In this document: one piece after another, positions 3,658 to 20,947 of the stretch | Layout of the letters: each line of letters opens with the position of its first letter | Position numbering within the stretch: the first letter of the stretch is position 1 | Source: Nitrospirota bacterium | GTDB lineage: Bacteria; Nitrospirota; Thermodesulfovibrionia; Thermodesulfovibrionales; JdFR-85 | Assembly: GCA_035873375.1 (NCBI GenBank) | Contig: JAYWMQ010000011.1 | Span: 1 to 44,541, forward strand | Reading direction: 5' to 3' | DNA: 44,541 nucleotides | Notes under the pieces: model-generated | Seen by the model: only the letters and a program-made list of their open reading frames with translations | Database searches by the model: none | Told to the model about the DNA's origin: nothing | Position numbers and translations under genes: made by a program

Positions 3658-4706
3658 TTGGGGTCTGCCCTTGAAACGGGATAGAACAAATAAGATATGC
3701 TAAAATACCACCATGGCGAGACCGCTGAGAATAGAATACAAGGGAGCTGTGTATCATATCCTGTCAAGGGGAAATCAGGGTGAAGAGATATTTTCTGATG
3801 ACAGTGACAGGGAATATTTTGTAGAAATACTTCAGCGTGCAAAGGAGAAGTATGGGGTAGAAGTCTATGCATACTGCATAATGGGGAACCACTATCATTT
3901 ACTCATATCAACTCCGGAGGGAAAACTTACGAGGGCGATGCACTTTATCGGGTCGAGTTACGGGAGTTATCTGCGGAGATACCGTGGAATGACAGGCCAT
4001 GTATTTGCCGGAAGATACAAGTCGTTGTGTGTGGAGAAGGAGAGCTATCTCCTGGAATTAAGCAGATACATTCACCTGAATCCAGTGCGGGCAGGTATAG
4101 TGAAATCTCCTGAAAAATATCCGTGGAGCAGCTACAGATACTATATCGGAAAGAAGACGGGGCCTGATTGGCTGAATACTGAGTGGCTGATAGGTGTATG
4201 CGGGAAAAGACCGAAGACAAGGCAGAGGAAATATAGAGAATATGTAGAGGCAGGGATAGAGAGTAAAGCGGAATATCCGGTAGAGAAGATAGTGGGACAG
4301 GCAATCCTTGGGAGCAGGGAGTTTGTTAAAAAGGTGCTGAAGGGATTGAAGAAAAGCCGGGGTTTGAAGGATGTGACTGCAAGGAAGAAGCTTGAGGGAA
4401 AGATAGAGTTAGATGAACTGTATCAGGAAGTATGTGAGTATTATGGAGCAGCAGACTTGAAAAATACGGCAGGAGTGAAGGATTCGGATGAGAAAAGGGC
4501 CCGGGAAATGTTTGTATTCCTGGCAAAGGAGCATACGTCGGCATTAAACAGGGAGATAGCAGCGCTGGTGGGGGATGTCAGTGCATCAGCAGTGAGCCAT
4601 CAATATAAAAGGACAGGCAGGAAGATGCAGGGGAATAAGAAGCCGGCAAGGCAATGGAGGAAAGAGGTCAGGGAGCTTGTTTCACGATTCAAGGGCTGAC
4701 CCCCAA
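3658..4706 (+). mobile_element. Complete RAYT insertion element with terminal inverted repeats
   Basis: The left end TTGGGGTCTGCCCTTGAAAC (3658-3677) matches the reverse complement of the right end (4685-4706, TTGGGGGTCAGCCCTTGAAT in that sense). There is one internal mismatch, one extra G and divergence after about 18 bases. The stop codon of the transposase (4697-4699) lies inside the right inverted repeat, so the gene fills the element edge to edge. A solo left end occurs at 196. No target-site duplication was found, as expected for Y1-type enzymes. Confidence 0.7.
3713..4699 (+). CDS. REP-associated tyrosine transposase (RAYT) with DnaA-like C-terminal domain
   Basis: The 328-residue protein starts with MARPLRIEYKGAVYHILSRG, the hallmark N-terminus of the family. 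The Y1/HUH catalytic core (residues 1-150) carries H60-x-H62 in MGNHYHLLIS and a likely nucleophilic Tyr at Y112 (SYLLELSRYIHLNPVRAG; Y119 is the alternative). Residues about 250-310 (FVFLAKEHTSALNREIAALV) resemble the DnaA C-terminal helix-turn-helix found in long RAYTs. RAYTs nick single-stranded REP hairpins and are thought to spread them. Nearby REP-like palindromes and the element's own inverted repeats are candidate substrates. All key residues are present. Confidence 0.88.
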   Translation: MARPLRIEYKGAVYHILSRGNQGEEIFSDDSDREYFVEILQRAKEKYGVEVYAYCIMGNHYHLLISTPEGKLTRAMHFIGSSYGSYLRRYRGMTGHVFAGRYKSLCVEKESYLLELSRYIHLNPVRAGIVKSPEKYPWSSYRYYIGKKTGPDWLNTEWLIGVCGKRPKTRQRKYREYVEAGIESKAEYPVEKIVGQAILGSREFVKKVLKGLKKSRGLKDVTARKKLEGKIELDELYQEVCEYYGAADLKNTAGVKDSDEKRAREMFVFLAKEHTSALNREIAALVGDVSASAVSHQYKRTGRKMQGNKKPARQWRKEVRELVSRFKG

Positions 4707-20401: not shown

Positions 20402-20865
20402 ATGCAGGGCAGGTGAGATGGTCGCTCCGTAGACGGGCGCAAGCCTGAGTCTACGGAGAGGAAAGTCCGGGCTCCGAAGGGCAAGGACAGTGGCTAAGCG
20501 CCACCGTCCCGTCGTTGGCCGGGGTTGCCGGTCTATGGCGGGACAGGGAAAGTGCCACAGAAAAGATACCGCCTGTGTGTAGGGGTCAGGTCTCAACATT
20601 CAACATAAGCAGCAAGCTTATGTTGAATGTTGAGACCTGACCCCTCAGACTGGTAAGGGTGAAAAGGCGGGGTAAGAGCCCACCGCTGCAGGGGTGACCT
20701 TGCAGGCATGGTAAACCCTGTCCGGAGCAAGGCCATGTAGGTTCCGCCTCGAGGGTGGCCCGCCCGATTGAGCGGAACGGGTAGGCTGCATGAGTCCGGG
20801 AGCAATCCCGGACCTCAGATGAATGACCATTACATACAGAACCCGGCTTATTGCCTGCCCTGCAT
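20402..20865 (+). ncRNA. rnpB: RNase P RNA, class A, with palindrome insert in P12
   Basis: The P1 stem ATGCAGGGCAG (20402-20412) pairs with CTGCCCTGCAT (20855-20865). The conserved cores are present in order: GAGGAAAGTCCGGGCTCC, AAAGTGCCACAGAAAAGA, GGTAAGGGTGAAA, GGTAAGAGCCCACCG, GTAAACCCTGTCCGGAGCAA, and GATGAATGACCATTACA with CAGAACCCGGCTTA. This RNA is the catalytic part of RNase P, which trims tRNA 5' ends. The segment equivalent to helix P12 is replaced or extended by a 65-nt perfect hairpin (20581-20645). All catalytic-core blocks are intact, so the gene is expected to work. It starts 9 bases after the RNase H gene and may be processed from that transcript. Confidence 0.96.
20581..20645. 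repeat. Perfect 30-bp palindrome (REP-like) within RNase P RNA
   Basis: Bases 20581-20610 are an exact reverse complement of 20616-20645, with a 5-base loop AGCAA. The outer sequence AGGGGTCAGGTCTCAACATT resembles ends of RAYT-associated repeats; the RAYT element here also begins GGGGTC and its solo copy at 196 has GGGGTCAG. The palindrome occupies the P12 position between the conserved blocks ACAGAAAAGATACCGCC and GGTAAGGGTGAAA. Confidence 0.92.
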
Positions 20866-20947
20866 TCATTATTTAAACTTTCAGGACCGCAGAACCACTT
20901 CTCCTGCCGGCAATCATTTTTAATCTTAATCAGCTATAATAAAAATT

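Follow-up and report, generated by a model that had tools for sequence, protein, structure and literature searches.

The RNase P RNA gene (rnpB) of a Nitrospirota bacterium carries a perfect palindrome in its P12 hairpin, which very probably originated as a miniature element of the TIRYT type that was inserted in the P12 loop and then kept as a tolerated hairpin. The kind of element is known and its landing place is unusual: a transposon-derived hairpin kept within a conserved ribozyme. New here is that the host with this insert-bearing rnpB also encodes rnpA and HARP, a protein-only RNase P.

A palindrome in the P12 helix of RNase P RNA

The window, that is, the whole stretch of 44,541 nt of DNA that was analysed, contains a class A rnpB at positions 20405–20866 of the forward strand, which matches the RF00010 model full-length (model positions 1–367) with a cmscan score of 277.2 bits (E = 1.3e-89) against a gathering score of 100. 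The palindrome appears in this search as an insertion relative to the model that falls in the P12 hairpin, the helix to which a previous sequence-only reading had assigned it. Exactly as described in that reading, the inverted repeat occupies 65 nt (20581–20645, +) and is formed by a left arm (20581–20610, +) and a right arm (20616–20645, +) of 30 nt each, separated in the fold by a 5-nt loop (20611–20615, +). The arms, of sequence GGGGTCAGGTCTCAACATTCAACAT, are 100% complementary with zero mismatches over 30 nt and constitute terminal inverted repeats (TIRs), the left one being also repeated elsewhere in the genome. The miniature TIR element proper covers 63 bp (20582–20644, +), reads GGGG...CCCC and is flanked by an A/T pair. 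On both sides, sequence and fold reveal the remnant of the basal P12 stem, whose 5′ strand CCTGTGTG (20572–20579, +) pairs with the 3′ strand CAGACTGG (20646–20653, +) with T.T and G.G mismatches.

As RNA, the palindrome region folds into one long hairpin of −71.4 kcal/mol (z = −11.2), a value that none of 200 shuffled sequences equalled. A 30-bp perfect inverted repeat in 44.5 kb is far beyond chance, and an assembly artefact is unlikely, as the insert is present in four separate genomes (see below).

Dispersed copies, a Y1 transposase and the TIRYT family

The sequence-only reading had suggested searching for further copies of the palindrome in the host genome (G000; 2.67 Mb in 63 contigs, 99% complete). 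With up to three mismatches allowed, a 25-mer of the arm matched at 15 places, namely the two rnpB arms themselves and 13 others, whereas the reversed 25-mer used as a control gave none. Nearly all of these copies occur as inverted pairs, which span 62 bp (C7), 63 bp (rnpB), 92 and 93 bp (C47), 149 bp (C15), 158 bp (C24) and 998 bp (C17), together with a lone end on C5, and nearly every copy is bounded on either side by GGGGTCAG. The 998-bp pair (C17:34393–35390) encloses an open 305-aa ORF with a Y1_Tnp domain (7e-13) and a C-terminal Bac_DnaA_C domain (PF08299, 1.1e-15), and units of 999 and 995 bp that share these ends are present in genomes G002 and G010, respectively. The copies of 62–166 bp share their TIRs with the 998-bp element, are non-coding and occur several times, as expected for MITE-like sequences. 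Inverted-pair copies together with a 998-bp unit with a Y1 transposase point to a likely autonomous element plus its miniature set, the small copies being presumably moved in trans by the C17-type transposase. The earlier proposal of a mobile insertion in P12 thus gains both dispersed genomic copies and a link to a Y1 tyrosine transposase. As a side observation, the 62-bp copy of genome G003 (L148, C195) has its centre inverted with respect to similar 62-bp copies in G000, G002 and G004 (L147, L150 and L066), as if the hairpin had been flipped.

Regarding the family of the element, the name TIRYT was given to Y1 transposases that lie between long TIRs, often with a GGGGWSAS motif (Di Nocera 2013, PMC3733652), and most belong to TnpAY1 subclass 2.1, in which the C-terminus bears an HTH, for instance Bac_DnaA_C (Quentin 2018, PMC6006769). 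The host element shows a Y1 gene between long TIRs (C17), GGGGWSAS ends and a C-terminal Bac_DnaA_C, and therefore, as judged from its GGGGTCAG ends and its Y1 plus Bac_DnaA_C transposase, fits the TIRYT/TIRtron class, with which it also shares dispersed TIR dimers. It differs from the elements described in those works in that one copy lies inside rnpB and is common to four species, RNase P being unmentioned in PMC3733652.

The ends had previously been taken as resembling those of RAYT/REP sequences. A canonical REP/REPIN dimer mobilised by a RAYT (TnpA-REP) would share with our element the short inverted pair, a transposase of the Y1 HUH family and the non-autonomous dispersal of scattered copies. 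REPs, however, are short palindromes accompanied by a GTAG-type tag (PMC8266576), and here a single arm folded alone gives 0 kcal/mol and no hairpin, whereas the flanks of the copies vary, none of them being consistently GTAG. These unfolded single arms and the absent tag lead us to discard a canonical REP/RAYT identity; moreover, the terminal repeat is much longer, and both the ends and the transposase domain match TIRYT instead. Mobilisation of a REP/REPIN dimer by a RAYT is consequently a very improbable origin. From the former description as a REP-like insertion, the mobile miniature element stands, but a strict REP/RAYT affiliation gives way to TIRYT/TIRtron.

Two other sequences of this kind came to light. 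At 3660–4703 (+), the window contains a second and different TIRYT-type unit, with a Y1_Tnp ORF at 3713–4699, a weak Bac_DnaA_C match and the inverted ends GGGGTCTGCCCTTGAA (3660–3675) and GGGGTCAGCCCTTGAA (4688–4703, minus). A similar GGGGTCAGGTCC...GGACCTGACCCC inverted pair is found outside rnpB in a Planctomycetota contig (L127, ~4262–4302, minus), which suggests that such an end type is widespread.

The insert among congeners and the upkeep of its arms

The genus set comprises six genomes (G000–G005, the host of the window being G000), and in four of them the insert occupies the same position within P12: G000, G002 (SZUA-77), G003 (BMS3Bbin07) and G004 (M_MetaBat.13). In the other two (G001 and G005) P12 is short and ordinary, its fold running uninterrupted for 14–15 bp, and the arm repeat is absent from the whole genome; their P12 is empty, in a sequence too diverged to give an exact junction. 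In a tree of rnpB and its flanks, the carriers form one side of a branch with 100/100 support, in the order (G002,(G003,(G000,G004))), with 88/89 support for the last fork. A single insertion before the split of the four carrier species is the simplest reading, and the insert is apparently common to them through descent. The insertion had been considered recent, which is wrong at the species level: four species share the insert, and the perfect arms do not, therefore, date it. In G004, one arm position has changed on both sides. When 84,980 species were scanned for the exact pattern, six matches were returned, of which only three are real and correspond to the congeners SZUA-77, BMS3Bbin07 and M_MetaBat.13. 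Among candidates for a wider spread, neither L126 nor L127 matched rnpB, and L128 holds the rnpB of an alphaproteobacterium, whose P12 is short and ordinary.

The form of the insert is not uniform, with an imperfect version of 81 bp in G003 and the perfect 63-bp version in the other three carriers. The 81-bp insert matches at 75 of 81 positions a second copy located just 3′ of the G003 rnpB. Such a second 81-bp copy directly 3′ of rnpB occurs in G003 (L140:1054–1134) and G002 (L141:783–863) and is absent from G000 and G004; a clean empty site for it was not found when G003 and G002 were compared with G000. The differing inner sequence of the carriers makes a second insertion or a conversion in G003 possible, and a conversion or replacement in this genome would require fewer steps on the tree than two identical deletions elsewhere.

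The same comparison bears on whether the palindrome could be an ordinary P12, slowly lengthened and perfected by selection without any mobile element. The helix is indeed variable, with 22–144 nt across the phylum as measured between sequence anchors in a genome sample that followed the CM score, a G-C to C-G double change in G004 preserves the helix, and the long P12 inserts of other relatives are essentially unrepeated in their own genomes. Yet the genomic copies of the arm contradict slow growth, as it is found at many unlinked sites as inverted pairs, one of them around a transposase gene, and the sister species lack the insert altogether, so that this origin seems to us barely credible. 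The sequence-only reading had favoured insertion over slow growth, which the dispersed inverted pairs and the sister species without insert now sustain; the same helix with compensatory changes in all relatives and no other genomic copies, the pattern it had associated with an ordinary P12, is not what we observe. As for the other long P12s, those of the relatives G013, G011, G006 and G026 (L034, L036, L040 and L050), all of them with two types of RNase P, measure 110–144 nt and have unrelated sequences. When considered as dispersed repeats, three were single-copy, and the one of G026 gave only a weak 34-nt partial second match.

Repeats within rnpB have been reported in cyanobacteria (Vioque 1997, cited in PMC2858038). 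The STRR sequences in rnpB of heterocyst-forming cyanobacteria resemble our case in that repetitive DNA sits in the gene and the gene is kept, but, going by the title of that work, they are short tandem repeats, whereas here we deal with a transposase-linked palindrome. A literature search with little coverage of subscription journals, and hence weak, found no REP-type or mobile insert in rnpB.

How the arms stay perfect is a separate matter. The 63-bp inserts of G000 and G002 are identical, against a divergence of 8.8% in the remainder of rnpB (chance ~0.003), and in G004 both arms are changed by one G-C to C-G swap, 29 of 29 pairs being kept in either form. An uninterrupted duplex of ~30 bp is conserved in three of the four carriers, the helix of G003 being interrupted, and the basal stem immediately beneath the insert is mismatched in all carriers, whereas its pairing is complete in the two species that lack the insert. 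We infer that perfect arms are upheld by template-switch correction, by gene conversion from other copies or by selection for pairing. At the sequence level, rnpB outside P12 looks intact and constrained in the carriers, with CM scores (263–277 bits) like those of the non-carriers (275 and 280 bits), and with an identity between carriers and non-carriers of 84–88% outside P12 as opposed to 67–78% in the flanks.

The hairpin may have been co-opted, perhaps as a point of entry for RNase III that leaves the RNase P RNA split or controls its amount. In this line, the ~30-bp duplex of three carriers and the identity of the G000 and G002 inserts despite the divergence of rnpB are joined by the precedent of the 23S rRNA intervening sequences, which are cut by RNase III (PMC6191907). 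The parallel lies in an additional segment placed where an essential RNA is variable; the RNA is another one, and RNase III processing in rnpB is putative. The conservation would follow equally well from palindrome correction or from conversion by the other copies, and G003 retains only an interrupted helix. A role of this kind, unlikely in our opinion, can hold together with the TIRYT insertion.

A second RNase P in the host and the probable tolerance of the insert

The host HARP (C30:57056–57601; L155:482–1147) scores 198 bits with TIGR03875 (cut-off 95.3) and matches the RNA-free RNase P of PDB entry 7e8k at 1.8e-66, so that HARP, rnpA and rnpB are all present in the genome. The former description of rnpB as an essential ribozyme therefore needs a caveat, as HARP is also encoded by the host. 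HARP is known from Nitrospirae, and from some bacteria beside the RNA enzyme (PMC6380272, PMC10941002). Among 379 genomes of the phylum, rnpB exceeded its cut-off in 267 and HARP its own in 106, both enzymes occurring together, by a hand tally, in about 10 compared to 75 expected, which makes them nearly exclusive of each other in the phylum. In many relatives HARP is present and rnpB undetectable. Large inserts were considered as the cause of these missing genes, but a relaxed search for rnpB stayed below the cut-off throughout, and HARP is present in most of the genomes concerned. Two genomes listed as 95–100% complete (G043 and G051) gave no rnpB, rnpA or HARP matches.

Very long P12 helices appear to be enriched in genomes with both enzymes. 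P12 reaches at least 80 nt in 7 of the 12 genomes with both enzymes as against 3 of 70 RNA-only ones (Fisher 2e-5), one of these three being masked with N, whereas by genus, counted by hand, the figures are 4 of 7 and 3 of 54 (0.002); G002, 80% complete and with no HARP match, was excluded from this comparison. The enrichment is suggestive and phylogenetically clustered: the dual genomes come mostly from one family, which implies few independent events, and with a sample that followed the CM score and a P12 delimited by anchors, we treat the association as a lead.

One model would link both observations, namely that HARP makes the RNase P RNA partly redundant, so that P12 expands and the insertion is tolerated. 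A host with HARP, rnpA and rnpB, where both enzymes are otherwise seldom together, and the commoner P12s of at least 80 nt in dual than in RNA-only genomes agree with such a relaxed ribozyme. On the contrary, neither the remainder of rnpB nor its CM score shows decay in the carriers, the association suffers from the family and sampling biases just mentioned, and P12 is variable anyway and dispensable in some cases, such as cyanobacteria (PMC2858038). We regard relaxation as possible though doubtful, and it can be compatible with the TIRYT insertion.

Altogether, for the TIRYT insertion we propose that a non-autonomous miniature element, moved by a TIRYT transposase supplied in trans, would have entered the P12 loop, most simply once, in the ancestor of the four carrier species, and would have persisted as an over-long P12 hairpin. 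It was probably tolerated because the distal part of P12 is peripheral and variable, and the inverted repeat folds itself away. The hairpin of ~30 bp may be cut by RNase III to give a two-piece RNase P RNA, in the manner of the intervening sequences of 23S rRNA, and selection against the insertion was possibly relaxed by the presence of HARP. The full chain, in which HARP relaxes the RNase P RNA and turns P12 into a landing pad, and RNase III cuts the TIRYT insert to leave a two-piece RNA beside HARP, is quite improbable as a whole.

In similar cases, a perfect palindrome should be taken with caution, as it does not prove that an insertion is recent. With four carriers, two sister species that lack the insert and a second RNase P in the cell, the present case offers a natural experiment on two questions: by which route an RNA enzyme gains new helical segments, and for what reason some bacteria retain both RNA-based and protein-only RNase P.
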